20,544 nt of DNA from a virus. Below, piece after piece: positions 640 to 16,024 of the stretch. How positions within the stretch are numbered: the stretch's first letter is position 1; every line of letters begins with the position of its first letter. The notes beneath the pieces are model-generated. The model searched no databases, was not told where the DNA came from, and was given only the letters and a program-made list of their open reading frames with translations. A program made the translations under genes and the position numbers. The stretch is taken from IMG/VR virus record IMGVR_UViG_3300033571_002377, positions 1-20,544 of that record, one strand, 5' to 3'.

Positions 640-1119
640 ATGGCTAAAGCTTTTACAGAACTAGATGCGTGTCCGTTACCACTTCAAAGTAACTCTCTAA
701 ACATTAAGAACCATCTCAAAGCAATTGAGTATGATGGTCTTGGTCCAGCTAACCCTACTATCCCTAATGATGAATTTTGGCAAGATAAAGCATCTAAATG
801 GAATGTATCTATTGGAGATGCTAGAGGTAGACTATGTAACAATTGTCGTTACTATGTAAATGCTACCATCATTAAAGATTGTATTGCTAATCTTCCTGCT
901 AAAGATTTAAAAGCATCAGCACTTCCATTAAATCCTAAATGGAAAGACATCGAATCAACTCCACAAGCATATTGCACACTCTTAGATATTACTTGTTCTC
1001 CAGTTAGAACTTGTGACCATCAATTAATGGGTGGACCAATTGATGATGAAAAAATGCAACTCCCTCAATACAAAAATATTTTAACTGAAGACAAAGAGGA
1101 ATTAGATAATGGCGAATAA
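640..1119 (+). CDS. Cysteine-rich hypothetical protein between terminase and portal
   Basis: A 159-residue protein of no function I can name. It is soluble, with no signal peptide or membrane segment. It has seven cysteines at residues 11, 66, 69, 81, 112, 119 and 125; the CNNC pair (66-69) is followed by single cysteines and a CDH near 125, a pattern that could hold zinc or an iron-sulfur cluster. Trp and Pro are frequent. The gene starts one base after the terminase stop and its end overlaps the portal start by 11 bases, so it is translated with the packaging genes. The position would suit a packaging or head-assembly accessory protein, but that is inference only. It does not resemble a small terminase subunit: no N-terminal helix-turn-helix is apparent. 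Confidence 0.75.
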   Translation: MAKAFTELDACPLPLQSNSLNIKNHLKAIEYDGLGPANPTIPNDEFWQDKASKWNVSIGDARGRLCNNCRYYVNATIIKDCIANLPAKDLKASALPLNPKWKDIESTPQAYCTLLDITCSPVRTCDHQLMGGPIDDEKMQLPQYKNILTEDKEELDNGE

Positions 1120-3067
1120 ATTAGTTGATTGGATCATAGAGACTACAGACGAGTGGAGAGACCACCGAGATACTAATTACCTTGACGACTGGAAAGAGTA
1201 TGAAAGACTTTGGAGAGGTCAATGGGCTTCTGAAGATCGCTTAAGAGACTCTGAAAGAAGTCGTATTACTTCCCCTGCACTTCAACAAGCTATTGAGAAC
1301 CATACTGCTGAGATTGAAGAAGCAATCTTTGGTCAAGGAGATCACCTCTTTGATATTGAAGATGACATGGATGACAAAAATCCACAAGACATTGAGTACC
1401 TAAAAGCTTATATGAAAGAGAAGTTTAAAAAGAATAAACTTCGTAAAGCTGTTGGTGATGTATGTCTATTAGCTTCTATCTATGGTACAGGTATTGGTGA
1501 AATCACATTAAAGAAAGTTAAAGAGTTAGTACCTGCAACTAGACAAATGCCTGAAGTAGATGCTATGGCAGTTGGTGTAGAAGAGAAAGATGCAGTGATT
1601 GTCACTCTAAAACCTATCTCACCACAGAACTTCTTGATTGACCCTACTGCAACTTCTATTGAAGATGCTCTTGGTGTAGCAATCGAAGAATTTGTATCAG
1701 CACATAAAGTTGCTGAGAATGTTAAAGCAGGTGTTTATAAAGACACAGACATTGAAGATGACTCAACTCCTGAAAAAGACTTAGAACCTACATGGTTAGA
1801 TCAAGAGTCTAATGACGATAAGATTAAACTCTTACGCTATTATGGCTTAGTTCCTGTATCATTATTAGATGCACAAGAAGATGAAGTAGCTGATCTCTTC
1901 AAAAAAGAAGATGATGTATCAGACTTAATGGAAGAATATGGTGATTTAGTAGAGGCTATCGTTGTTATCGGTAATGATGACAAGCTATTAAAGGCTGAAA
2001 GAAGCCCTTACATGATGAAAGATCGCCCTATTATCGCTTATCAAGATGATACAGTGCCTAATCGCTTTTGGGGTCGTGGTGTAGCTGAAAAAGGTTACAA
2101 TATGCAGAAGGCTATTGATGCTCAATTGCGTAGTCATCTTGACTCTTTAGCACTTACAACAGTACCTATGATGGGTATGGATGCTACTCGCCTACCTCGT
2201 GGCTCTAAATTTGAGATTAAACCAGGTAAATCTGTCTTAACTAATGGCAATCCTGCTGAAATTTTGATGCCATTCAAGTTTGGTCAGACAGATGGTGGTA
2301 ATATTCAGACTGCACAAGCATTTGAAACCATGCTTTTACAAGCAACTGGTACTTTAGATACACAATCTACACAAAGTCAACCTGTAGGTGGTGAATTATC
2401 TATCACTTTATCATCAATCTTGAAGAAAAACAAGAGAACACTTGTTAATTTCCAAGATCAGTTCTTAATTCCATTCATTGAGAAGGCTGCATGGAGATTT
2501 ATGCAGTTTGACCCTGAACATTTCCCTGCTGCTGACTGGAAATTCATTTCATCATCAACATTAGGTATGTTAGCTCGTGAAGTTGAACAAGCACAAATCA
2601 TTAATCTACTCAAAACACTTGGTCCTGACAGTCCAATCGTACCTATCTTGTTACAAGGTGTGATTGCTAACTCAAGTCTACCAAATAGAAACGCTTTAAT
2701 GGCTCAAGTTCAACAATCAATGCAACCTGATCCACAACAACAACAAATTCAGCAAGCTACTTTACAAATGCAAATGCAAAAAGCTCAGGCTGATATTGCT
2801 AAGACTGTTTCTGAAGTGGAAGTTAATAAGTCTAATGCTACTAAGAATATGGTTGAGACTCAATTGCTCCCTGAAGAGACAAAAGCTAAACTTGCATCAG
2901 CTTTATCTAACAATTTAGATGCAGGTACTGCAGATGACAAAGAATTTGAGAGAAGAGCTAAGATTGCTGACCTTATGCTTAAGGAAAAATCTATCAAATT
3001 GAAAGAACAAGACATGGCTCAGAACGCTGAGATTGTTAAACTTCAAATGAATAAAAAGGCACAATGA
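1109..3067 (+). CDS. Portal protein (head-to-tail connector)
   Basis: A 652-residue protein of the size and layout of podovirus portals, the dodecameric ring at one capsid vertex through which DNA is packed and ejected. The N-terminus is rich in Trp, Arg and acidic residues (DDWKEYERLWRGQW near residues 26-39) and carries an RSRITSPALQ segment, as seen in this family. The middle has the WGRGVAEKGYNMQKAIDAQL segment (about residue 322 onward), also typical. The C-terminal 120 residues are Gln-rich then helical and charged, fitting the barrel that projects into the head. The start has a good ribosome site, AGAGGA at 1095-1100. It overlaps the upstream gene by 11 bases, and its stop overlaps the next ATG (ATGA at 3064-3067). 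Assignment rests on family recognition plus position after the terminase. Confidence 0.88.
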   Translation: MANKLVDWIIETTDEWRDHRDTNYLDDWKEYERLWRGQWASEDRLRDSERSRITSPALQQAIENHTAEIEEAIFGQGDHLFDIEDDMDDKNPQDIEYLKAYMKEKFKKNKLRKAVGDVCLLASIYGTGIGEITLKKVKELVPATRQMPEVDAMAVGVEEKDAVIVTLKPISPQNFLIDPTATSIEDALGVAIEEFVSAHKVAENVKAGVYKDTDIEDDSTPEKDLEPTWLDQESNDDKIKLLRYYGLVPVSLLDAQEDEVADLFKKEDDVSDLMEEYGDLVEAIVVIGNDDKLLKAERSPYMMKDRPIIAYQDDTVPNRFWGRGVAEKGYNMQKAIDAQLRSHLDSLALTTVPMMGMDATRLPRGSKFEIKPGKSVLTNGNPAEILMPFKFGQTDGGNIQTAQAFETMLLQATGTLDTQSTQSQPVGGELSITLSSILKKNKRTLVNFQDQFLIPFIEKAAWRFMQFDPEHFPAADWKFISSSTLGMLAREVEQAQIINLLKTLGPDSPIVPILLQGVIANSSLPNRNALMAQVQQSMQPDPQQQQIQQATLQMQMQKAQADIAKTVSEVEVNKSNATKNMVETQLLPEETKAKLASALSNNLDAGTADDKEFERRAKIADLMLKEKSIKLKEQDMAQNAEIVKLQMNKKAQ

Positions 3068-6000
3068 GTATATTAGATCAGGTTTTTAACCTAACTAAAG
3101 AAGAACAAATTGCTTTATTAGATGAGCTAGAGAAGAAGGCAACATCGTCTTCTCCTATTGCTCTACCTAAAGAAGTCATCGATACATTTGAACTTCCTCC
3201 TGAAATTGACATTGAAAAAGAACTTGCTATCATTAAGGAAACTATTTTAGCAGAAGTTCAAGCCATTGAGATTAATGCTCCTAAAGGTGATAAAGGAGAC
3301 AAGGGTGACAAAGGCGATAAGGGAGATGTTGGTCCTCAAGGTCCTAAAGGTCTAGATGGCATTGATGGTAAGCAAGGTAAAGATGGATCAGATGGTAAAG
3401 ATGGTATATCTGTCACTGATGCTCATGTAGACTTTGATGGCACATTAGTAATTACTTTATCTAATGGTAAAGAGATTAATGCTGGTGATGTAATTCCTAA
3501 TGATAAAAAAGAATTAGTTATACAGAGTTTAAAAAATGGTGCTCTATCACTTCTTGAACTTGGTATTGTAGAATATCTAGCAAGTCCTCCTCCAATTGGT
3601 AGTGTTACTCCTAACACAGGTAAGTTTACATCTGTCATTACACCTTCAGTCACATCATCATCTACTGACTTAACATTAAATACAACTTCAGCAGTTACAG
3701 TATTAAAAGTTCAAGATGATACTTCAGGAGGAAATGCAACAGCATCATCACTTTGGGTAACTGGAACTAGAGCAACCTTAGGAAGAGTTAGTTTAAAATC
3801 TAGTGGAGCTTTATGGTTTAACTCAGGTTCTACTAATGGAATACAATTTAATACTAATTCAAATTCAGGAGTTGGTAGTGATGGTTCTGCTCAATTTGCA
3901 GTAGCTAATACAACTTCTTCTGTAAATTTTCTACAAGCTCAAGGATCAGTTACAGGAAATGCTACAGGTCCTCTTTTAGCAGCTGTAGGCGCTGATACAA
4001 ATGTACCAATGCAAATTCAAGGTAAAGGTACAGGAAGTGTAGCTGTATTAACTCCAACAGCTCTTGGAGGAACAGTAGGTAATACTGCTGAACTATTTGC
4101 TGCTAAAGGATATAATACTAATGCAGTTTGGTTAAGAGCAAGTTCATATCGACATACTACAGGAACAGATTGGACAACAGCCAGTTTAAGACTTGGTCAG
4201 CGTATTGATGCAACTGATATGTCTTATATTGAATTTAATCCAAGTGGATTCCCACAAGGTATTGCTATTCAAACAGGTAATAATCAACCAATTAACTTTA
4301 ATACAACAGGTGCACAATTTAGAGTAGGTACTGCAGCATCATCTGTTAACTATGTTCAAGCATCAGGTGGAGCAGGAGGTATATCTCCTACAATATCATC
4401 ACAGGGTGCAGATACTAATGTTTCTTTATCTATTCAATCTAAGAATACAGGAGCAGTTAACTTAGCACCTGGTAGTAGTGGTGTAAATATAAGTAATGGT
4501 GGAACAGTAACAGCTATTACGAGAACAAGTGCAGGAACAGGGTATTCTTCATTTCCAACTATGGTTATATCAGCACCAACTACAGCAGGTGGTGTTCAAG
4601 CTACAGCTACATTTACTATGGGTTTAGCAGGTGTTCCAACAATTACATCAGGTGGAACAGGATATACAGTAGGTAATACTTTAACATTTGTTGGTGGCAC
4701 AGGTGGTGTTGCAACATTAACAGTAAGCACAGTATCAAGTGGTGTAATTACAGGTGTAACAGTAGCAGGTTTTGGTTTATATACAGCATTACCTAGTAAT
4801 CCAATTTCAGTTACAGGTGGAACAGGCTCAAGTGCTACATTTACTGCAACATGGGCAATCAATTCTGCCTTTACAATCACCAACGCAGGTTCAGGCTACA
4901 TAGAACAACCTACAGTAACCTTTAGTGGTGGCGGTGGAACTGGGGCTGCTTGTGTAGCTTCTATGGGTACAAGTACTTTATTAAAGAGTCTTAATAACTC
5001 AATGGTAATATCTGTACCAAATGGTGAAGCATTAAGATTACAAACAGATACAAATGGAGTATCAAACGGAGCTATAGGTATTATAGGAAGTTCAAACTCA
5101 TCTAATGGTTCTCATTTATACTCTACTTTTGGTCAGTTATATGTATCATCAGGTACATCTAGTGCTATTACCTTTTTTACAAATGGTGCAGGTAGTACAA
5201 GACAAGCTGTTATTAATCATACTGCCTCTGCAGTTAATTACTTACAACTTGCTGGAGGTACATCAGGTGTAGGACCAGTTTTATCTGCACAGGGTAGCGA
5301 TGCAAATATAGCTCTTGATATTAGATCTAAAGGTACAAGTAGTATTGCTTTTGCTAATTCATCAGGTCAATGGGGTTTCTATGTAACTCCTACAGCAAAT
5401 ACTGCTAATCAACTTCAAGCAGTAAGTGCAGTAGCAGGCGGTACACCTTCTTTTAGAAGTACAGGTACAGATACAGATATTAGTCTTAATTTAGTTCCAA
5501 AAGGTGCAGGAACAGTTCAACAAAACGGAACGCCATTAGCGCTATCAACTCACAAGTATCATGCATTTAATGTAGGCTCTTACTATTATGATACTTATGA
5601 GCAAACTAACTTTTTTAGATTATTTACTCAAAATGCTACGGCAGATACGATTCGTTACGGAACAGTAACAACACCTGAATATTATGATTATGGAACTTCT
5701 ACTTGGACATCATGGGCTGCTGGACAATCAGGAATACAAAACTTATTAGATGGAAATCCAAGCACTGGTATAGACATAGCTCACGCAAATAGAACTTTTA
5801 GATTTATTGTTAATGCTTCTGATGGATGGCCAACTAATTCTTTAGTTATGCTTCAATCAACTTGGTCAGCAATAACTTATACAACAGCTACAGTAACAAT
5901 TGAATCTTCTGCAACTATTGGCGGCACATATACATCTCGTCAAGTTATGGTATTTAGTGCAGCTAACTCTGGTAATAACTGGGGTATGCATGCTTATTAT

Positions 6001-6732
6001 ACAGGTTCAATTCATACAGGCGATACATACTATAGAATTACAATTGATCTAACAGACTGGGTAGATAACACAACATATACAACATACCCATTAAGAAACC
6101 TATCTATCTATTCTAACTATTCAGCAGTAGCTGGTAGACAAAATCCATTCTCAACTTCTTATGATAAGAGAACAACATTTGTAGGTGGTATTTCTGCAGC
6201 AGATGATGCAAATGGATCTTTATATGTAGGTAGATATAGTTCAAGTAATACTAATTCTTTTATTGATGCAGGTTCTGCTGCTTCAGGAATGGTATTTAGA
6301 ACACAATATACTAATCAACTTGTATTAAGTCATACAACATCAGCAGTTAATTATGTTCAAATATCAGGGCAAACAACAACAAATGCTCCGAGTATTATTG
6401 CAAATGGATCTGATGCTTCTATAGCTATGGTAGTTTCGTCAAAAGGTTCAGGCAATATATCATTTTGGAGTAATGCAACAGGAAACAGACAATTTGTTAT
6501 ATTAGGATCAACTGCATCAGTAAATTATCTACAAGTATCAGGAAGTACTGCAACTAATGCACCTTCATTAAGTTCAGGAGGAACAGATACTAATATAGAT
6601 TTAGCATTAACACCTAAAGGTACTGGTAGAGTTAAATTTGGTACTTATACAGCAAGTGCAGGATTAGTCACTACAGGATACATAGAAATTGTAGATTCAG
6701 GTGGCACAGTAAGAAGATTAGCAGTAGTATAA
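3064..6732 (+). CDS. Giant modular tail fibre or spike protein with collagen-like segment
   Basis: A 1222-residue fibre-like protein. Order: a helical acidic N-terminus (1-70); a collagen-like Gly-X-Y stretch of 13 triplets (residues 75-113); a PPPIG...TP..G.FT motif common in phage fibres (about 174-190); a Ser/Thr/Gly/Asn-rich shaft with six copies of a 45-50-residue module (see repeat entry); a Gly-rich block of GTGY/GSGY beta repeats (about 479-636); a distinct Tyr/Trp-rich globular domain (about 829-1050); and a C-terminus with GYIEIVDSGG ending RRLAVV, a common fibre end. Collagen-like and shaft repeats imply a trimer. It probably binds host surface structures; whether it attaches at the tail or to a capsid site is unknown. 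Translation is coupled to the portal by ATGA overlap. Its place between portal and scaffold is unusual for a fibre gene. Confidence 0.82.
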   Translation: MSILDQVFNLTKEEQIALLDELEKKATSSSPIALPKEVIDTFELPPEIDIEKELAIIKETILAEVQAIEINAPKGDKGDKGDKGDKGDVGPQGPKGLDGIDGKQGKDGSDGKDGISVTDAHVDFDGTLVITLSNGKEINAGDVIPNDKKELVIQSLKNGALSLLELGIVEYLASPPPIGSVTPNTGKFTSVITPSVTSSSTDLTLNTTSAVTVLKVQDDTSGGNATASSLWVTGTRATLGRVSLKSSGALWFNSGSTNGIQFNTNSNSGVGSDGSAQFAVANTTSSVNFLQAQGSVTGNATGPLLAAVGADTNVPMQIQGKGTGSVAVLTPTALGGTVGNTAELFAAKGYNTNAVWLRASSYRHTTGTDWTTASLRLGQRIDATDMSYIEFNPSGFPQGIAIQTGNNQPINFNTTGAQFRVGTAASSVNYVQASGGAGGISPTISSQGADTNVSLSIQSKNTGAVNLAPGSSGVNISNGGTVTAITRTSAGTGYSSFPTMVISAPTTAGGVQATATFTMGLAGVPTITSGGTGYTVGNTLTFVGGTGGVATLTVSTVSSGVITGVTVAGFGLYTALPSNPISVTGGTGSSATFTATWAINSAFTITNAGSGYIEQPTVTFSGGGGTGAACVASMGTSTLLKSLNNSMVISVPNGEALRLQTDTNGVSNGAIGIIGSSNSSNGSHLYSTFGQLYVSSGTSSAITFFTNGAGSTRQAVINHTASAVNYLQLAGGTSGVGPVLSAQGSDANIALDIRSKGTSSIAFANSSGQWGFYVTPTANTANQLQAVSAVAGGTPSFRSTGTDTDISLNLVPKGAGTVQQNGTPLALSTHKYHAFNVGSYYYDTYEQTNFFRLFTQNATADTIRYGTVTTPEYYDYGTSTWTSWAAGQSGIQNLLDGNPSTGIDIAHANRTFRFIVNASDGWPTNSLVMLQSTWSAITYTTATVTIESSATIGGTYTSRQVMVFSAANSGNNWGMHAYYTGSIHTGDTYYRITIDLTDWVDNTTYTTYPLRNLSIYSNYSAVAGRQNPFSTSYDKRTTFVGGISAADDANGSLYVGRYSSSNTNSFIDAGSAASGMVFRTQYTNQLVLSHTTSAVNYVQISGQTTTNAPSIIANGSDASIAMVVSSKGSGNISFWSNATGNRQFVILGSTASVNYLQVSGSTATNAPSLSSGGTDTNIDLALTPKGTGRVKFGTYTASAGLVTTGYIEIVDSGGTVRRLAVV
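3286..3402 (+). repeat. Collagen-like Gly-X-Y coding repeat
   Basis: Thirteen consecutive Gly-X-Y triplets (GDK four times, then GDV, GPQ, GPK, GLD, GID, GKQ, GKD, GSD, GKD). The first four are near-identical 9-base units differing at wobble positions, which indicates tandem duplication with synonymous drift. The alternating Asp/Lys triplets are typical of bacterial and phage collagen-like trimerisation segments, which fold without hydroxyproline by salt bridges. Confidence 0.9.
3910..6651 (+). repeat. Six dispersed copies of a 45-50-residue fibre module
   Basis: The module reads roughly T-x-S-x-V-N-Y-L-Q followed by a variable S/G loop, then P-x-(I/L)-x-x-x-G-(S/T/A)-D-(T/A)-(N/D)-(I/V), then a KG(T/A)G or close variant and a beta strand. 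Copies begin near residues 283, 424, 720, 778, 1091 and 1149 of the 1222-residue fibre. Pairs three-four and five-six are nearly adjacent; the others are separated by unrelated inserts. Copies differ substantially in DNA, so duplication is old. Each copy probably forms one interwoven beta layer of a trimeric shaft (inference). Confidence 0.8.
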
Positions 6733-6758: not shown

Positions 6759-7028
6759 ATGGCGTTATTAAAATTAGTAGATACAGACTTTGGTATTCCA
6801 GCAGAATATTGGAACATTGGAGCAGTGCAAGAGGACTTTAAAGGTAAAGGAACAGAAGTAACATTCTATGGCTACGCATCTAAAGAAGCTCGTGATGCAG
6901 GCAAACAACCTTTATCAGCAGGTAAAGTTCAAATTGGTGGTGATGAATATGTAGCAGGTGCTGATCGTTCTGTATTATACGCTATTATCAAGCAAAAGCC
7001 TGAATTTGAAGGTGCTGAAGACGCATAA
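6759..7028 (+). CDS. Small hypothetical protein downstream of the large fibre
   Basis: An 89-residue soluble, acidic-tailed protein with no signal peptide or membrane segment and no domain I recognise. It begins with MALLKLVDTDFG and has a central stretch predicted as beta (TEVTFYGYASKEARDAG) and an acidic end. The start is supported by a strong ribosome site (AAAAGGAG ending at 6750) and the gene follows the fibre stop by 26 bases with no promoter or terminator between, so it is co-transcribed with the fibre. A strong promoter lies immediately after it. It could be a fibre partner, head decoration or assembly factor; nothing in the sequence decides between these. Confidence 0.75.
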   Translation: MALLKLVDTDFGIPAEYWNIGAVQEDFKGKGTEVTFYGYASKEARDAGKQPLSAGKVQIGGDEYVAGADRSVLYAIIKQKPEFEGAEDA

Positions 7029-7036
7029 TAAATCTC

Positions 7037-7065
7037 TTGACTTTTTAAGAAATCTATGTTATAAT
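7037..7065 (+). promoter_or_regulatory. Strong sigma-70-type promoter with extended -10 (capsid unit)
   Basis: TTGACT at 7037-7042, a 17-base spacer, and TATAAT at 7060-7065, with TG at 7057-7058 giving an extended -10. Transcription should start near 7072, leaving a leader of about 40 bases before the ATG at 7114. It lies in the 85-base gap between two genes and reads into the scaffold and capsid genes. The sequence just after the -10 (TTGTTATATA) closely matches that of the promoter at 12440. Confidence 0.85.
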
Positions 7066-7113: not shown

Positions 7114-7356
7114 ATGGATAGAGAATTACAAGATTATTATGAAAATAGATTTTCTATGATGTCTACTCAGGGATGGGTGGACTTCATAGAAGATACACAG
7201 CAATTATTTGATACATATAATAAGATTAATACGGCTGATTCGTTTGAAGAGTTTCATAAACGAAAAGGTCAGATAGATATACTTCAATGGATTCTGTCGC
7301 TTCGTGGAGCTTCAGAACAAGCCTATGAGGAGTTAAAACTTGAAACGGATGTATGA
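7114..7356 (+). CDS. Small acidic hypothetical protein, first gene of capsid unit
   Basis: An 80-residue protein rich in Asp/Glu and aromatic residues, mainly helical by composition (RELQDYYENRF, QQLFDTYNKI, ILQWILSLRG). No signal peptide, no membrane segment, no catalytic motif; I do not recognise a named family. It is the first gene after the strong promoter and has an AAGG ribosome site seven bases upstream. Its 3' end contains the GAGGAG site for the next gene and overlaps that gene, so the two are translationally coupled. The context suggests a role in head assembly or its regulation, inference only. Confidence 0.78.
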   Translation: MDRELQDYYENRFSMMSTQGWVDFIEDTQQLFDTYNKINTADSFEEFHKRKGQIDILQWILSLRGASEQAYEELKLETDV

Positions 7357-7573
7357 GTTCCAATGCTCTCAATGTAATCATTACTTTGAAGAGTTGACAG
7401 AATACACACAGACGCTACCTTGTCCTAAATGTAACGCTAACGCTGATAAACTTATTAGCACACCTAGAGTTAAATTAGAAGGATATTCAGGAAGCTTTCC
7501 AGGTGCAGCCGCTGCTTGGGAGAAAAAGCATAAACAACAGTTGGCTAAAGAACTTAAGCAGAATGCCGCTTAG
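7340..7573 (+). CDS. FmdB-type zinc ribbon protein
   Basis: A 77-residue protein (from the TTG start) with two CxxC knuckles, C9-x2-C12 and C28-x2-C31, preceded by MYEFQC, the signature of FmdB-family zinc ribbons; these bind one zinc and their role in phages is unknown. The C-terminal half is a basic, Ala/Lys/Gln-rich helix that could bind nucleic acid or a virion partner. Start choice: TTG at 7340 lies seven bases after GAGGAG (7327-7332), an ideal spacing. An ATG at 7349 would give the more family-like MYEF start but leaves the ribosome site 16 bases away. Either way it overlaps the upstream gene. It sits just before the scaffold gene, so it is transcribed with the head genes. Confidence 0.82.
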   Translation: MKRMYEFQCSQCNHYFEELTEYTQTLPCPKCNANADKLISTPRVKLEGYSGSFPGAAAAWEKKHKQQLAKELKQNAA

Positions 7574-7611: not shown

Positions 7612-8409
7612 ATGGCAGAATTTTTAGATGAGGTTTTAGAAAATACAACGGACACTTCTCCTTTAGAAGATCTTCAACCAAATGTTGCAAAAGATTTGAA
7701 AGAAGAACCAGCTAAAGAGGAACCGAAGTTAGAAGAAGTCCCTGAGAAATATCGTGGTAAGTCACTTAAAGACATTGTTGCCATGCACCAAGAAGCTGAG
7801 AAGCTCATTGGTCGTCAAGGTAGTGAAGTAGGTGAGTTACGCAAAGTAGTGGATGACTTCATTAAAACACAAACAGCTAAAGAATCAAAAGTAAACGAAC
7901 CGACAATTAGTGATGATGATTTCTTTGTTGAACCTAAGACAGCAGTAAATAAGGCAATTGATAATCATCCTGCAATTAAGCAAGCTCAAGAACAAGCATT
8001 AATGATGAAGAGAGAACAAACTCTTGCTCAGCTTAGAAGTGAGTTTCCTAATGTGCAAGATGTAGTTCAATCACCTGACTTTGCAGATTGGATTAAGTCT
8101 TCAAAAGTCCGAACAGAGTTATTCGCTAGAGCAGAAACACAGTTTGACTATGATTCTGCAAAAGAACTTCTCTCTACTTGGAATGACAGACAAAATATCA
8201 CTAAAAAGGTAGCAGAAACATCCAAAGTTGACCGAGAACAGCAATTAAAAGCTGCTGACATTGGTACTAACAATGGAACTTCTGAGACTGTCGCTAAAAA
8301 GAAGTATCGTAGAAGCGATATTATTAAACTTATGCAAACTGATCCTGATAGATATGATGCTATGTCCAATGAGATAATGGCAGCCTATCGAGAGGGTCGT
8401 GTAATTTAA
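7612..8409 (+). CDS. Putative capsid scaffolding (assembly) protein
   Basis: A 265-residue, highly charged, largely helical protein placed directly before the major capsid gene, where podoviruses encode the scaffold that guides procapsid assembly and then leaves. The N-terminal 40 residues are acidic and Pro/Glu-rich, likely disordered. Residues about 44-80 carry EKYRGKSLKDIV and KLIGRQGSEVGELRKV, a segment I recognise from phage scaffold-position proteins. The C-terminus (about 230-265) is a basic helical unit, KKYRRSDIIKLM...DPDRYDAMSNEI, reminiscent of the coat-binding C-terminal helices of scaffolds. Start supported by AGGAGA at 7600-7605. It shares the promoter at 7037 with the capsid gene. 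Function is inferred from composition and position. Confidence 0.78.
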   Translation: MAEFLDEVLENTTDTSPLEDLQPNVAKDLKEEPAKEEPKLEEVPEKYRGKSLKDIVAMHQEAEKLIGRQGSEVGELRKVVDDFIKTQTAKESKVNEPTISDDDFFVEPKTAVNKAIDNHPAIKQAQEQALMMKREQTLAQLRSEFPNVQDVVQSPDFADWIKSSKVRTELFARAETQFDYDSAKELLSTWNDRQNITKKVAETSKVDREQQLKAADIGTNNGTSETVAKKKYRRSDIIKLMQTDPDRYDAMSNEIMAAYREGRVI

Positions 8410-8432: not shown

Positions 8433-9344
8433 ATGGCTTTAGGCTCTAGTCAAGTAACAGTAACAACAGCAGCAACCTTCATTCCTGAAGTATGGAGTGA
8501 CGAGATTGTAGCAGCATACAAGAAAAACCTTGTTGCAGCTAATCTCTTTAAAAAAATGTCATTCGTTGGTAAGAAAGGTGACACAGTTCATATTCCTTCA
8601 CCAACTCGTGGTACAGCTTCATTAAAAACAGCTAATAACCAAGTTGCTTTACAAGCAGCTACAGAAGGTGATGTAGCAGTTTCTATTGATAAACACTACG
8701 AATATTCACGCTTAATCGAAGACATCGTAGAAGTTCAAGCTCTTTCATCACTCCGTCGTTTCTACACAGATGACGCTGGTTATGCTTTAGCTAAACAAGT
8801 TGATACTTCATTAGTACAATTAGGTCGTACATTCAATGGTGGTTCAGGTGCTACTTACAGTGGTGCTTACATCGGTGGTGATGGTACAACTGCTTATAAC
8901 TCAGGCACACCAAATGCTTCAGCTTTAACAGATGCAGCTATCCGTAGAACTATTCAAAGATTAGATGACAACGATGTTCCAATGGATGGTCGTTTCTTCT
9001 TAATCCCTCCTTCAGCACGCAATACATTAATGGGTCTTGCTCGTTACACAGAACAAGCATTCGTTGGTGAAGCTGGTGGTAACAACACAATCCGTAATGG
9101 TGAAATTGGTAACCTTTATGGTATCCCAGTGTTTGTTTCTTCTAACGCTGATACAGCAACTGGTGCTGCTAGAATCTGCTTACTTGGTCATAAAGACGCA
9201 GCAGTTTTAGTAGAACAACAAGGTGTTCGTTCACAAACTCAATACAAACAAGAGTACTTAGGTACACTTTACACTGCAGATACTCTCTATGGTGTTGCTG
9301 AGCTTCGTGACAACGCTTGCTTCGCTTTAGCAGTTCCTGCTTAA
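8433..9344 (+). CDS. Major capsid protein
   Basis: A 303-residue protein with the features of HK97-fold podovirus coats that assemble the icosahedral shell. Seen: N-terminal FIPEVWSDEIVAAYKKNL, then KKGDTVHIPSP strand, the EYSRLIEDIVEVQAL helix, AKQVDTSLVQLGRTF, and late strands ending ELRDNACFALAVPA. No long N-terminal delta domain is evident, consistent with a separate scaffold gene. Ribosome site AAAAGGA lies nine bases before the ATG. Codon use differs from its neighbours: Arg is mostly CGT/CGC rather than AGA, and Phe and Asn often end in C, as expected for the most abundant virion protein. A terminator follows immediately. The assignment is firm from length, sequence style and scaffold-coat order. 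Confidence 0.9.
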   Translation: MALGSSQVTVTTAATFIPEVWSDEIVAAYKKNLVAANLFKKMSFVGKKGDTVHIPSPTRGTASLKTANNQVALQAATEGDVAVSIDKHYEYSRLIEDIVEVQALSSLRRFYTDDAGYALAKQVDTSLVQLGRTFNGGSGATYSGAYIGGDGTTAYNSGTPNASALTDAAIRRTIQRLDDNDVPMDGRFFLIPPSARNTLMGLARYTEQAFVGEAGGNNTIRNGEIGNLYGIPVFVSSNADTATGAARICLLGHKDAAVLVEQQGVRSQTQYKQEYLGTLYTADTLYGVAELRDNACFALAVPA

Positions 9345-9604: not shown

Positions 9605-10972
9605 ATGGCTATCTATAGAGGTGAGGGAGGTTCAGGTAATGCAACCACTGATTCAACCAATCAGGGTTATATTGCCACACAAGCTGCTGCAGATGCACAA
9701 GCTAGTGCTGTTGCCTCAGCTAATTATGCTTCTGATGCTGCAGCTAGTTTAGATAGTTTTACAGATTTATACCTTGGTGCTAAATCATCTGTCCCTACAG
9801 TAGACAATGATGGAAATACTTTACAAGTTGGTGCTATCTATTGGAATACTACTTCATCTCATTTATATGTATGGTCAGGAGCAGCATGGCAAGACGCTGC
9901 GTTTACAACAGTTGGTGCTGTAACATCCTTTAATTCAAGAAATGGTGATATTACTTTATCATCTTCAGATGTCACAAGTGCATTAACTTATACTCCATTA
10001 GCTCCTTCAGCTATTGGAACAACAGTTCAAGGGTATGATGCTGACCTAACTACTATTGGTGGATTAGATAAAACTAATGGTAATTTTATTGTTGCTAATG
10101 GAACTGCTTGGGTTGCAGAAGGTGCATCAACAGCTAGAACATCTTTAGGTGTAACAGCTACAGGAGCAGATACTACTTATGCTTATAGAGCTAATAATTT
10201 ATCTGACTTAAATGATGCTACAACAGCTAGAACTAATTTAGGTTTAGGATCTATTGCTACACAACCAGCAAGTAATGTTACTATCACTGGTGGTTCTATT
10301 ACAGGCATTACAGACTTAACAGTAGCAGATGGTGGTACTGGTGCTTCAACTATTACAGCTAACTCTGTTATCCTAGGTAATGGTACTTCTTCATTATCAG
10401 GTAATTTAGTAGCTCCAGGAACTTCAGGGAATGTCCTAACAAGTAATGGTACAACATGGACAAGTTCCTCTGCTCCAACATTAACATTAGGTACATCAAA
10501 AGCATATAACTGGAATGGTTTAACTACAAATACTTCCATAGATTTTTCAGGTATTCCATCAACAGCTAAAGAAATTAATATTAATCTTGCCGAAGTTTCT
10601 TTTTCAACTACTGCTGCTGCTATAAGAATACAAATTGGTGGATCTACAATTGAGACTACTGGTTATTTAGGATCTACAACTAGACAAGGTGGTAGTGCTG
10701 TAGCAACTTCACTTACATCTACTGCTGGTTTTGATATGCAAACTACTTATGCAGTTGCCAATGGAATGAGTGGAAGTGTGACTTTAAGACTAATTAATTC
10801 ATCATCTAATCTTTGGTCTTGTACATTTTTGTTTGGAGATACAGTTTCTACAGCTACATTTTTATTAGCAGGATCAAAAGCAACATCAGGAGCACTAGCA
10901 AATATCAGAGTAACTTCTGTAGCAGGAACACCTGCATTTGATGGTGGAACAATTAACATTTCTTATTTATAA
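9605..10972 (+). CDS. Second tail fibre-like protein
   Basis: A 455-residue fibre-like protein. The N-terminus (about 1-50) is Ala/Ser/Gln-rich and helical (AAADAQASAVASANYASDAA), then come YLGAKSSVP...GAIYWNT...LYVWSGAAW and FNSRNGDITLSSSDV...LTYTP, motifs common in phage side fibres. A middle shaft has TARTSLGV, LSDLNDATTARTNLGLG and VADGGTGASTITANSVILG-type repeats. Residues about 305-455 form a C-terminal domain that aligns with the end of the third fibre (14777-16024). Ribosome site AAGGAC is eight bases upstream. Probably a trimeric host-binding fibre; the shared C-terminal domain is the likely tip. No chaperone-type or enzymatic motif is visible. The assignment rests on motif style and repeats. 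Confidence 0.8.
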   Translation: MAIYRGEGGSGNATTDSTNQGYIATQAAADAQASAVASANYASDAAASLDSFTDLYLGAKSSVPTVDNDGNTLQVGAIYWNTTSSHLYVWSGAAWQDAAFTTVGAVTSFNSRNGDITLSSSDVTSALTYTPLAPSAIGTTVQGYDADLTTIGGLDKTNGNFIVANGTAWVAEGASTARTSLGVTATGADTTYAYRANNLSDLNDATTARTNLGLGSIATQPASNVTITGGSITGITDLTVADGGTGASTITANSVILGNGTSSLSGNLVAPGTSGNVLTSNGTTWTSSSAPTLTLGTSKAYNWNGLTTNTSIDFSGIPSTAKEININLAEVSFSTTAAAIRIQIGGSTIETTGYLGSTTRQGGSAVATSLTSTAGFDMQTTYAVANGMSGSVTLRLINSSSNLWSCTFLFGDTVSTATFLLAGSKATSGALANIRVTSVAGTPAFDGGTINISYL

Positions 10973-10976
10973 TATT

Positions 10977-11141
10977 ATGACACCAAATGAACAAAAAGAA
11001 GCAATTAAAGAGGCATTAGAAGAATGGTTAGATAAACAATTCTCTAAATTTGGTGTATGGTCTTTAAAGGGTATTGTAGCTATTGCGTTAGCTGGATTAG
11101 TTTATTTATGGGCTATGACGCATGGCTGGTCTATTAAATAA
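10977..11141 (+). CDS. Small single-pass membrane protein (lysis cassette)
   Basis: A 54-residue protein starting at ATG 10977, four bases after the fibre stop. Residues 1-25 form a charged amphipathic helix (TPNEQKEAIKEALEEWLDKQ), and residues about 30-47 are a single membrane helix (KGIVAIALAGLVYLWAM). The frame also opens at upstream ATGs (10938, 10941), but those would add residues encoded within the fibre gene and 10977 gives the more natural start; there is no clear ribosome site, so translational coupling is likely. The position before a protease, a holin-like protein and a peptidoglycan peptidase suggests an accessory holin, antiholin or other lysis regulator. This is inference from context. 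Confidence 0.7.
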   Translation: MTPNEQKEAIKEALEEWLDKQFSKFGVWSLKGIVAIALAGLVYLWAMTHGWSIK

Positions 11142-11469
11142 AAAGACTCTTAGACATCTCTATAGTTCATTTATAAGGCTTCCACCATTTAATAGGTATA
11201 AGATGCCTTCACCCCATAAGGTGAGATTTGAAGTGATGGATTCAGAGGATTGTGATGGACTATTTACTCCTGGTAATATGACAGTTCATATTGAGACTAG
11301 ACAAGATAGTTTTAAGAAAATGTCAGAAGTTCTTTTGCATGAGATGATTCATGTTCTTCTTTATGAAAGAAATAAATATACCAATGCTTATGCAGGACAT
11401 GATGGTAGTTTTAAAGAGTTAGCAGATGAAGTATGTAAACTTTATAAATTTAATAGGAAAACATTCTAA
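11122..11469 (+). CDS. SprT-like zinc metallopeptidase
   Basis: A 115-residue protein whose end carries HEMIH at residues 73-77 (His73 and His77 as zinc ligands, Glu74 as the catalytic base) and a third histidine at 93 in HDGSFKELA. HExxH followed by H-x2-[ST]-F is the arrangement of SprT/Spartan-type proteases. The N-terminal 45 residues hold basic and Pro-rich segments, with no signal peptide. There is no C-terminal zinc ribbon as in full-size SprT, so this is a minimal domain. It overlaps the upstream membrane protein gene by 20 bases and ends directly before the holin-like gene. Substrate unknown: it could process virion or host proteins, or act in lysis. The fold assignment is good; the role is open. 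Confidence 0.78.
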   Translation: MAGLLNKKTLRHLYSSFIRLPPFNRYKMPSPHKVRFEVMDSEDCDGLFTPGNMTVHIETRQDSFKKMSEVLLHEMIHVLLYERNKYTNAYAGHDGSFKELADEVCKLYKFNRKTF

Positions 11470-12439: not shown

Positions 12440-12468
12440 TTGACAAATAGCCATTCTTATGGTATAAT
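12440..12468 (+). promoter_or_regulatory. Perfect consensus sigma-70 promoter with extended -10 (tail unit)
   Basis: TTGACA at 12440-12445, a 17-base spacer and TATAAT at 12463-12468, with TG at 12460-12461 giving an extended -10. Transcription should start near 12475, leaving only about 18 bases of leader before the ATG at 12493. Downstream genes are adaptor, nozzle, fibre and ejection proteins. No terminator separates it from the lysis genes upstream, so it adds to rather than replaces read-through. Confidence 0.9.
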
Positions 12469-13137: not shown

Positions 13138-14777
13138 TGGCTGGTCAATTAAAAACTTTATCAATAGCAGCCCCTGGATTCTTAGGTTTAAATACTCAAG
13201 AGTCAGGTGTTACACTTGAAAATGGTTATGCTACTATAGCTAATAACTGTGTTATAGATAAATATGGTCGTCTTGGTGCTAGAAAAGGTTGGTCTAAGAT
13301 TACAACCAATAATAACTCATTGTCTGATACTGACCCAATTGAAAGTATATTCGAGTTTAAAGAAGTAAATGGGTCTATTCAATATCTCTCTGCTGGTGGA
13401 TTAAAACTATACTCAGGGACTACTACTTTAAACCTAGAGACTATTAAAAGTTCAGGTGGAAATCCATCAACAGATTTATCACCTCAACCTACATTTACAG
13501 GTAATAGATGGCAGTGGGCTTCTCTTCCTGAAGGATCAGGTCCTGATGCAAATTCTTATGCTTTTGCTGCACAAATAGGAAATCCTTTATTAGTATGGAG
13601 AAGAAAAGGAACAGTAGATCCACATACTGGTAATTTTATTCTACAAAAAGTAGATCAAACTACTGGATATGGAAATAGACCAAGTGGAGTTACAACATTT
13701 GATCCTGATTGCTGTTTAGCATCTTTTGGTAGAATATGGGTAGCTAATTTAACAAGTAATAAATCAACTATATATTATAGCAAACTTGTTGATCCTACTC
13801 AATTTTCAGGAACTGGGTCAGGTCTAGTTGATATTAGTTCAGTAGTTGGTAATAATGATGAAGTTGTAGCCTTAGCTCAACATAATAATTATTTAGTTAT
13901 CTTCTTAAAGAATAACATTGTAATCTATTCAGGTGCATCAGATCCTGCAACAATGGTATTAGCAGATGTTATTAAAGGTATTGGATGTATTGCTCGTGAT
14001 TCAGTACAAGGTACTGGAACTGATTTAATATTCTTATCTAAGAGTGGAGTAAGAAGTTTAAACAGAACAATACAAGAAAAGTCTATGCCAATGAGAGAAC
14101 TATCTCTTAACATTAGAGATGACTTAGTTGGATATATTAATATTGAGACTTTAAATAATGTTAGAAGTGCTTATTTTGAAAGAGACTCATTCTACCTTAT
14201 TACATTTCCTGGATCTAAACTTATGGTTTATTTTGATCTAAGGAATACTCTTCCTAATGGTGCAGCTAGAACTACTATTTGGAATAATACATTAGGAACT
14301 AATTACTCTGCATTTTGTTCTACAGAAGATAGAAAACTTCTTATAGGTACTCCTGGAGCAATTTCAGAATACAATGGATACAATGACAATGGTAATGTTT
14401 ATACTTTAAAATATTATGGATCTACAACTGATTTAGGTGCTCCAACAACTAATAAGATGCTTAAAAAAGCATCATTTATGGTTATAGGTAGTGGAGATCA
14501 AGATTTTGTATTTAAATATGGATATGATTATACATTAAATCCTATGTCACAAAATATAGTTAAATCATTAGGTAGTGCTACTTATTCTAAATATAATACT
14601 ACTGCTAAGTATAACTCAGCTAAATATGCTTCAGTAGGTTTAGGTATTAAGAGTATCTCTGTACCTTTAACAGGTTCAGGTAAAGTCATTCAATTTGGTA
14701 TTGAATCAACAATTAATGATGCTGCTTTAAGCATACAAAAAATAGATGTTTATTTACAAACAGGGAAAACATTATAA
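13137..14777 (+). CDS. Tail nozzle / stabilisation protein (T7 gp12 / P22 gp10-like)
   Basis: A 546-residue protein starting at ATG 13137, which shares its A with the TAA of the adaptor gene; a GTG at 13122 in frame would add five residues but lacks support. The N-terminus APGFLGLNTQESG followed by NCVIDKYGRLGARKGW (about 42-58) is the family hallmark of hexameric nozzle proteins that form the lower tube below the adaptor. The body is beta-propeller-like in composition, with repeated FGRIWVANL, YLVIFLKNNIVIYSG and LIFLSKSGVRSL blades. Length is between P22 gp10 (472) and T7 gp12 (794). The next gene's ATG overlaps its stop, so adaptor, nozzle and third fibre are translated as a coupled set. 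Confidence 0.83.
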   Translation: MAGQLKTLSIAAPGFLGLNTQESGVTLENGYATIANNCVIDKYGRLGARKGWSKITTNNNSLSDTDPIESIFEFKEVNGSIQYLSAGGLKLYSGTTTLNLETIKSSGGNPSTDLSPQPTFTGNRWQWASLPEGSGPDANSYAFAAQIGNPLLVWRRKGTVDPHTGNFILQKVDQTTGYGNRPSGVTTFDPDCCLASFGRIWVANLTSNKSTIYYSKLVDPTQFSGTGSGLVDISSVVGNNDEVVALAQHNNYLVIFLKNNIVIYSGASDPATMVLADVIKGIGCIARDSVQGTGTDLIFLSKSGVRSLNRTIQEKSMPMRELSLNIRDDLVGYINIETLNNVRSAYFERDSFYLITFPGSKLMVYFDLRNTLPNGAARTTIWNNTLGTNYSAFCSTEDRKLLIGTPGAISEYNGYNDNGNVYTLKYYGSTTDLGAPTTNKMLKKASFMVIGSGDQDFVFKYGYDYTLNPMSQNIVKSLGSATYSKYNTTAKYNSAKYASVGLGIKSISVPLTGSGKVIQFGIESTINDAALSIQKIDVYLQTGKTL

Positions 14778-16024
14778 TGTCAAACTATAGCAAAAGTACA
14801 AACTTCTTAGCAAAAGACTCTTTAGCAGACTCAGATCCAGGTAAAATTATTAAAGGTTCTGAATTTGATACAGAATTTAATAGTATTGTAACTGCTGTTA
14901 ATAGTAAAGCTAACACAGCTTCTCCAGCATTAACTGGAGTTCCAACAGCCCCTACTGCATCTTCAGGCACTAATTCAACTCAATTAGCTACAACAGAGTT
15001 TGTTCAAGCTGCAGCAGATACTGCAAGGACTTATTCTACTGTTCAAACATTTAAAGATACTACATTTAGTATTATAGACAATACAGATGCAACTAAAAAG
15101 ATTGCTTTAGAGCTTGGTAATATTACTACAGCTACTACTAGAACACTTACAGTAGCAGATAAAAGTGGTACTATTGCTTTAACAAGTGATTTACCAGTAG
15201 TTGATCCATTAAATAGTGCTACAAATACAGTAGTGACAGGTACTTATGCAGCTACATCAAGTACAACAATTACAATTACAGCTACAAATACATATACAGC
15301 AGGTCAAATAGTTTATATTACATTTACTAAATCTTCAGGTAGTGATTTAACTGCAGGTAATTATACTATTGCAACTGCTACTGGAAGTGGATTTACAATT
15401 ACTTATGGAAGTTCAGTAACCTCAGCAGGCTCAATGACTTCATCAAGATATGGTTATGCAGCAATTGCTACAACTACAGAGATTATTGCTGGAACAGATA
15501 CTACTAAATTTATAACTCCAAGTAGATTAAAAGAAGCTAATTTATCTCCATCTAGTCCAACGACAATGACTGGTGAAATAGTTACAATTTCTAATGTACC
15601 CTCTTGGGCTAGAAGAATATCTTTATTATTTAAAGAAGTTTCAACAAGTGGTGGTTCAAATAAACCATTCATTAGATTAGGAACCTCTAGTGGAGTAGAC
15701 TCTACATCTACCTATTTAGGAACAACTGGTAGTACTAAAAGTATTACTACTGGTACTGATACAAGTAACTGGTCAGATAGTATCCTTATTGTTGGTGCAG
15801 GAGCTCTTCATGCAGCTGCTAATAAATTAAACGGAATTATCACTTTAGTTAATGGTGGTAATTACGACTGGTATGTTACAGGATCACTTGGTGTTTCACA
15901 AAATAATGGTATTTTTTATTTAGGTGGTAGTAAAACTCTTGCAAGTGCACTAACTCAGTTAGAGTTTAATATTGAAAGTTCAGATACATACGATAATGGT
16001 ACAGTTATTGTAATTTATGAATAA
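14777..16024 (+). CDS. Third tail fibre-like protein
   Basis: A 415-residue protein. The N-terminus SNYSKSTNFLAKDSL followed by GSEFDTEFNSIVTAVNSKA is a common tail-attachment segment of podovirus fibres. It is followed by the phage fibre repeat SPALTGVPTAPTAS...TQLATTEFVQ (about residues 55-80), a beta-rich shaft with IALELGNITT and LTVADKSGTIALTS, and from about residue 265 a C-terminal domain aligning with that of the fibre at 9605. Being encoded directly after the nozzle and coupled to it (TAATG) makes it the best candidate for the fibre anchored to the tail hub. Its stop overlaps the next gene by eight bases. Host-binding role inferred. Confidence 0.83.
   Translation: MSNYSKSTNFLAKDSLADSDPGKIIKGSEFDTEFNSIVTAVNSKANTASPALTGVPTAPTASSGTNSTQLATTEFVQAAADTARTYSTVQTFKDTTFSIIDNTDATKKIALELGNITTATTRTLTVADKSGTIALTSDLPVVDPLNSATNTVVTGTYAATSSTTITITATNTYTAGQIVYITFTKSSGSDLTAGNYTIATATGSGFTITYGSSVTSAGSMTSSRYGYAAIATTTEIIAGTDTTKFITPSRLKEANLSPSSPTTMTGEIVTISNVPSWARRISLLFKEVSTSGGSNKPFIRLGTSSGVDSTSTYLGTTGSTKSITTGTDTSNWSDSILIVGAGALHAAANKLNGIITLVNGGNYDWYVTGSLGVSQNNGIFYLGGSKTLASALTQLEFNIESSDTYDNGTVIVIYE

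Follow-up and report, generated by a model that had tools for sequence, protein, structure and literature searches.

A mosaic fibre gene and a small neighbouring gene in a recurrent insertion slot behind the portal gene of an uncultured podovirus

Why does a long fibre gene lie among the head genes of a podovirus, directly behind the portal gene? The question is raised by a 20,544-nucleotide stretch of viral DNA (IMG/VR record IMGVR_UViG_3300033571_002377, positions 1 to 20,544; hereafter the window), in which a gene for a 1222-residue protein is encoded between the portal and scaffold genes. A first-pass annotation had described the protein as a mosaic fibre and proposed either that a host-range module was inserted here or that the protein has its role at the head or portal vertex. 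We find that the place between portal and scaffold is an insertion slot, neither unique nor fixed, and we consider it likely from the sequence comparisons that the gene encodes an extra, exchangeable receptor-binding fibre, in all likelihood trimeric, which would move together with a downstream 89-residue gene (g89) as a mobile cassette in the portal-capsid slot.

The open reading frame (ORF), Pfam matches, motif counts and composition all agree with a mosaic fibre made of a collagen-like segment, six shaft modules, GTGY/GSGY repeats and a tyrosine/tryptophan (Tyr/Trp)-rich domain. The Pfam Collagen match covers fibre residues 74-114 (E value 4.6e-7), and the shaft motif, defined as N[YFQ][LV]Q...G[SAT]D[TA][ND][VI]...KGTG, is found exactly six times, starting at residues 288, 429, 725, 782, 1096 and 1154. 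Since none of 561 control ORFs from related loci (in which the slot is mostly empty) contains this motif, chance is excluded as its source. Three AGTGY/GGTGY/GSGY units are located at residues 490, 526 and 609, and residues 829-1060 comprise 9.5% Tyr and 2.6% Trp, with Tyr at 0-3% in the other fibre segments. Chimeric assembly of the ORF was ruled out, as the junction is the same in two independent contigs (L165 and L002). The placement of the gene between portal and scaffold, with its start overlapping the portal stop in an ATGA, also stands, with the refinement that three small genes (for 89, 80 and 77 residues) and a promoter intervene between fibre and scaffold.

To see how this place is occupied in relatives, we compared the interval from the portal to the next conserved gene in the 80 viral contigs scoring best with the window's portal (clade A) and the 80 scoring best with a sister-clade portal (clade B). 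In clade A, 71 contigs have an empty slot (small genes only), two have a large gene and one (L002) starts the same collagen-bearing ORF before the contig ends. In clade B, 55 slots are filled with one or several large genes, the first of which bears collagen in nearly all cases, and 20 are empty; near-duplicates among the sampled contigs make these proportions rough, while both states are certain. A portal tree of 155 rows requires at least seven changes between the two states, six of them forced by well-supported branches, and the filled members of clade A, which include L094 and L165 (the latter added for carrying the Tyr/Trp-rich domain), sit at separate places on it; filled members of this clade number about four in all. 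A leader-plus-collagen arrangement related to that of the window follows the portal in 92 loci. Among relatives the slot is seen vacant, occupied by the window's cassette or occupied by different fibres. As a separate observation, the slot of clade B often holds a multi-gene island of up to ~6.8 kilobases (kb; L275, L276, L296, L298, L303 and L306). A literature search of partial coverage returned no papers on this slot in these phages.

The ends of the insert can be read from the empty sites. In clade A contigs with an empty slot, the portal gene runs straight into a sigma-70-like promoter (TTGACA-17-TATAAT) ~78 bases upstream of the 80-residue gene, and in many of them the -35 box overlaps the final portal codons. 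This promoter was detected in 66 of the 71 empty-slot relatives and in both readable filled ones; no contig of the sister clade had it. Because portal is followed by promoter at the empty sites and the window's promoter sits after g89, the insert is fibre plus g89: in clade A it consists of exactly these two genes and leaves the promoter intact. Judging by sequence, the promoter probably drives the scaffold and capsid genes.

Comparison of the fibre with its relatives revealed two parts with different histories. The cassette of L165 is the same and is inserted at the same position. Identity between its fibre and that of the window reaches 87% in the collagen, 79% in the Tyr/Trp-rich domain, 77% in the post-collagen segment and 73% in the leader, and falls to 41-56% in the shaft. 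The L018 fibre has only residues 1-198 (74% identity) and shaft modules in common with the window fibre. Conversely, L166 and L167 match residues 277-1222 at 58% identity (978 columns for L166) within a 1684-residue fibre that has another N-terminus, and the L166 phage has a capsid protein of another family. L249 matches residues 704-1130, again at 58%, and has a different C-terminus with YadA-like repeats at the fibre end. The phages of L166, L249 and L170, whose fibres share modules with that of the window, are unrelated to it. The leader and collagen end thus stays with the slot and the C-terminal modules, including the Tyr/Trp-rich domain, circulate among unrelated phages. Receptor-binding fibres usually show just this picture: a repeat stalk (collagen and shaft), a conserved N-terminus with exchangeable C-terminal modules, and modules shared across phages. 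The idea of an inserted module of the host-range type is supported by these shared modules and by the coexistence of empty and filled sites among close relatives.

The gene order recurs outside the two clades. In the podovirus L170 the terminase and portal genes are followed, again through an ATGA, by a fibre gene, g89 and then scaffold and capsid genes; these last two belong to families other than the window's, and the portal is only distantly related. The portal gene of crAss001 (gp20) is followed by those for a head fibre (gp21) and a tail fibre (gp22), further fibre genes and the capsid gene (gp32). By cryo-electron microscopy, gp21 sits on capsid hexons, as a trimer bound via its first 38 residues, whereas the tail hub bears gp22 (PMC10172136). 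The gp20-gp26 block of crAss001 resembles our locus in that fibre genes begin immediately behind the portal and precede the capsid gene, gp21 and gp22 being anchored by short N-termini (PMC10172136), but the fibre anatomy is another, no sequence relationship was shown, and the window-type slot is often empty and takes a two-gene insert. SU10 and MQM1 have a single small gene only at this place, and gp49 of HMO-2011, which occupies it as well, was rejected as a fibre by sequence. Such an order has precedents without being universal. The slot is an uncommon but recurrent place for fibre genes, and the arrangement, which had been taken as exceptional, is shared by the sister clade, L170 and crAss001.

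Other fibre systems share single traits with the locus. The prophage side-tail proteins EPclA and EPclB likewise join an N-terminal part, a helical segment, a collagen stalk and a C-terminal domain, and these collagen-like proteins are trimers; unlike the window fibre, they have different terminal domains and are encoded in the tail module (PMC3368898). The host recognition cluster of pelagimyophages is also a hypervariable fibre region among structural genes, with collagen and YadA-type repeats, but these phages are T4-like and the region is far larger and at another position (PMC7029224).

The Tyr/Trp-rich domain was found in only four other contigs, two of which are near-duplicates, and is 72-79% identical in L165, L166 and L249. 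It has no sequence match in Pfam, PHROG or the PDB; no Pfam model of the galactose-binding-like superfamily was hit at E ≤ 10 by four members, and a PDB profile search gave no convincing match. No new families emerged when more relatives were sought in viral contigs and 84,980 genomes, and a search for the host through bacterial genomes found neither this domain nor g89 in them. An AlphaFold2 model built from four sequences has an all-beta core at a mean predicted local distance difference test score (pLDDT) of 39 and a predicted template modelling score of 0.45. With this model, Foldseek ranked CBM61 and Fbs1 best (E from 0.005) and VIA-align gave Z scores of 6-7.4 over ~110-125 residues, which is below the tool's own caution level; the matches belong mostly to one superfamily (CBM61, Fbs1, CBM32, DOC domains, CBM22 and F5/8C). 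At such a pLDDT these fold matches are only a hint. Galactose-binding-like sandwiches (CBM32, CBM61, DOC, F5/8 type C) thus rank first for the low-confidence model, but differ in that the domain lacks a Pfam sequence match and that the best scores are a Z of 7.4 and a Foldseek E of 0.005. On the basis of the model, we lean towards a galactose-binding-like beta-sandwich for the core (about residues 862-1023), and sugar binding by the domain is plausible, the fold signal lending it weak support. The suggestion of a new fold is not upheld, as the signal of the only model, low in confidence as it is, is that of a known sandwich. It had further been suggested that a confident match to a known fold, together with the same gene order in all relatives, would make the gene ordinary; neither part applies, the fold signal coming at a pLDDT of 39 and the slot being often empty.

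If the product is an extra receptor-binding fibre, its 74-residue leader would hold a trimer on the virion, with the tail or the portal vertex as the probable site. Collagen and the six shaft modules would form the stalk, with beta-rich modules between them as binding parts, of which the Tyr/Trp beta-sandwich may bind a host surface sugar, and g89 would help the fibre to fold or cap it. Translational coupling to the 12-copy portal would keep the fibre at a similarly low copy number, and a number limited in this way suits an appendage on the tail side more than a decoration of the capsid. The window and its empty-slot relatives carry the usual tail-fibre gene too. Several points weigh against this proposal. 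The Tyr/Trp model has a mean pLDDT of 39. With six leader families in the slot, some of them next to portals that closely resemble one another, one dedicated docking site stays putative. Finally, both the head fibre gp21 and the tail fibre gp22 of crAss001 are encoded in the slot, so that position alone does not tell head from tail.

The latter point bears on a head fibre, an alternative that we regard as unlikely: the product would decorate the capsid like crAss001 gp21 or phi29 gp8.5 and mediate weak, non-specific attachment to the host surface or the environment. The gene does lie among head genes, the usual tail fibre is encoded elsewhere, and gp21 is a trimeric head fibre encoded directly after the portal (PMC10172136). 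However, a fibre that is coupled to the low-copy portal, and that a promoter separates from the capsid operon, would be scarce, the same slot is used by a tail fibre (gp22), and the PHROG matches include no head-fibre family, known head fibres not having been compared directly. We therefore clearly prefer the tail or portal vertex over the head as the site of the fibre. Tight genetic coupling with the portal could also point to a structural protein of the portal vertex (a plug, collar or assembly factor) that has no part in host recognition; this is very improbable, as the fibre is missing from 71 close relatives that have the same portal, and fibres encoded elsewhere than next to such a portal contain its modules too. 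An accidental or selfish insertion whose product stays outside the virion would agree with the patchy distribution, but has a negligible chance of being right given the intact 3.7-kb reading frame, the leader conserved in the slot and the recurrence of collagen-bearing genes there in many contigs.

The second gene of the cassette, g89, provides the most surprising item of the locus, its near-invariance. At least 219 contigs carry it, and in the 80 best-matching ones (L168-L247) its product is 87-97% identical; mean identity is 91% for the protein and 81% for the DNA; at fourfold sites 51% differ, with saturation at 70%. For pairs whose silent divergence is 0.49-0.69, identity amounts to 57-58% in the portal and 66-75% in the capsid protein, as against 91-92% in g89, and the difference between g89 and the capsid protein at the same silent divergence indicates that g89 is under much stronger constraint. 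A role of g89 as a DNA anchor for recombination was rejected, its DNA being less conserved than its protein. An ORF with the shaft motif lies upstream of g89 within 4.5 kb in 54 of 68 testable loci (directly upstream in 37), so that, as expected of a chaperone, g89 usually lies downstream of a fibre gene and travels with it. Family searches yielded no family name for it, and g89 was not found in the phage isolates and bacterial genomes searched at the sensitivity used. A model of g89 (pLDDT 71) matched SecB-type chaperones at a Z of ~4 only, and Foldseek against the PDB and viral models gave no match at E ≤ 0.001.

By analogy, the first roles to be guessed for g89 are those of a fibre chaperone or a cap, the analogue being the fibre and chaperone module of Alteromonas phages A5 and V22 (PMC10579305). 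There, too, a fibre is followed by a small downstream gene common to distantly related phages, but the chaperones have 240 and 195 residues versus 89 in g89, no homology was shown, and the module lies among tail genes (PMC10579305). We tentatively entertain, as an idea with less than even chances, that g89 serves many unrelated fibres in many lytic phages as a generic small partner, either a chaperone or a tip cap, kept near-constant by a common fibre feature or host factor and moving with the fibre as a post-portal plug-in cassette. Another small family, whose L249 member falls in phrog_18037, was also seen downstream of fibres, sometimes directly before g89; its members (L249, 6098-6367; L200, 1921-2190; L212, 5172-5441) are 27-29% identical to g89 and have the pattern EAR..G..P...Y..LK in common with it. 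Two different portal genes and two fibre-g89 cassettes are present on a 46-kb contig (IMGVR_UViG_3300042516_001195; L195, L217, L335 and L336), which was set aside as evidence because the two portal genes may reflect a joined assembly, the alternative being an odd genome.

The features of the locus are collected in Table 1. Genes in the window follow the order large terminase (end), portal, fibre, g89, 80-residue gene, 77-residue gene, scaffold and major capsid, then a fibre-like gene at 9605 and, further along, an endolysin-type peptidase, tail genes and the usual tail fibre, whose N-terminus (KSTNFLAKDSL..G) occurs in empty-slot relatives as well. A gene for a SprT-like metalloprotease (11122-11469) is flanked by a fibre-like gene and the lysis genes, and two convergent promoters with 12/12 sigma-70 consensus, 12440-12468 (+) and 12515-12487 (-), are located upstream of the tail genes.

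Table 1. Features of the fibre locus and its surroundings, in window coordinates
Feature	Position	Strand	Details
Portal protein, SU10/P22-type	1109..3067	+	652 residues; Pfam SU10_portal E 6e-16; PHROG 1216 E 2e-41
Mosaic fibre	3064..6732	+	1222 residues; ATG start; ATGA overlap with portal stop
Slot-type short leader, putative virion anchor	3064..3285	+	residues 1-74; 73% identity with L165 and with L018
Collagen-like Gly-X-Y segment	3286..3411	+	residues 75-116; Pfam PF01391
Conserved post-collagen segment, SVTDAHVDFDGTLVITLSNGKEINAGD	3418..3603	+	residues 119-180; 77% identical to L165
Shaft module 1	3913..4053	+	about residues 284-330
Shaft module 2	4339..4473	+	about residues 426-470
GTGY/GSGY repeat block	4513..4959	+	about residues 484-632; also one in the L166 and L170 fibres
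Shaft module 3	5227..5361	+	about residues 722-766
Shaft module 4	5401..5529	+	about residues 780-822
Tyr/Trp-rich domain	5548..6279	+	residues 829-1072
Shaft module 5	6337..6474	+	about residues 1092-1137
Shaft module 6	6511..6645	+	about residues 1150-1194
C-terminal tail GTYTA..TGYIEIVDSGGTVRRLAVV	6646..6729	+	common to many fibres
g89, second gene of the cassette	6759..7028	+	89 residues; phrog_5084, no assigned function
Sigma-70-like promoter TTGACT-17-TATAAT	7037..7065	+	3' end of the insert; consensus 11/12
80-residue gene	7114..7356	+	first after the promoter; flanks the empty site
77-residue gene, FmdB-like zinc-ribbon type	7340..7573	+	PHROG 1076 E 5e-6
Scaffolding protein	7612..8409	+	PHROG 19777 E 2.6e-5
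Major capsid protein	8433..9344	+	PHROG 267 E 4.5e-53
Tail fibre, usual place	14777..16024	+	PHROG tail fibre matches; widespread N-terminus KSTNFLAKDSL..G

Long mosaic fibres are a familiar kind of protein; it is the recurrent slot and the unusually unchanging g89 that deserve attention. With its clean empty sites, exact cassette ends and intact promoter, the slot offers uncultured podoviruses a defined site at which host-recognition genes can be plugged in, and these same traits make host-range change by cassette gain and loss readable from metagenomes. The still unnamed g89 is a candidate for a helper that phage fibres have in common and, if it is one, would be of use in laboratory fibre production.

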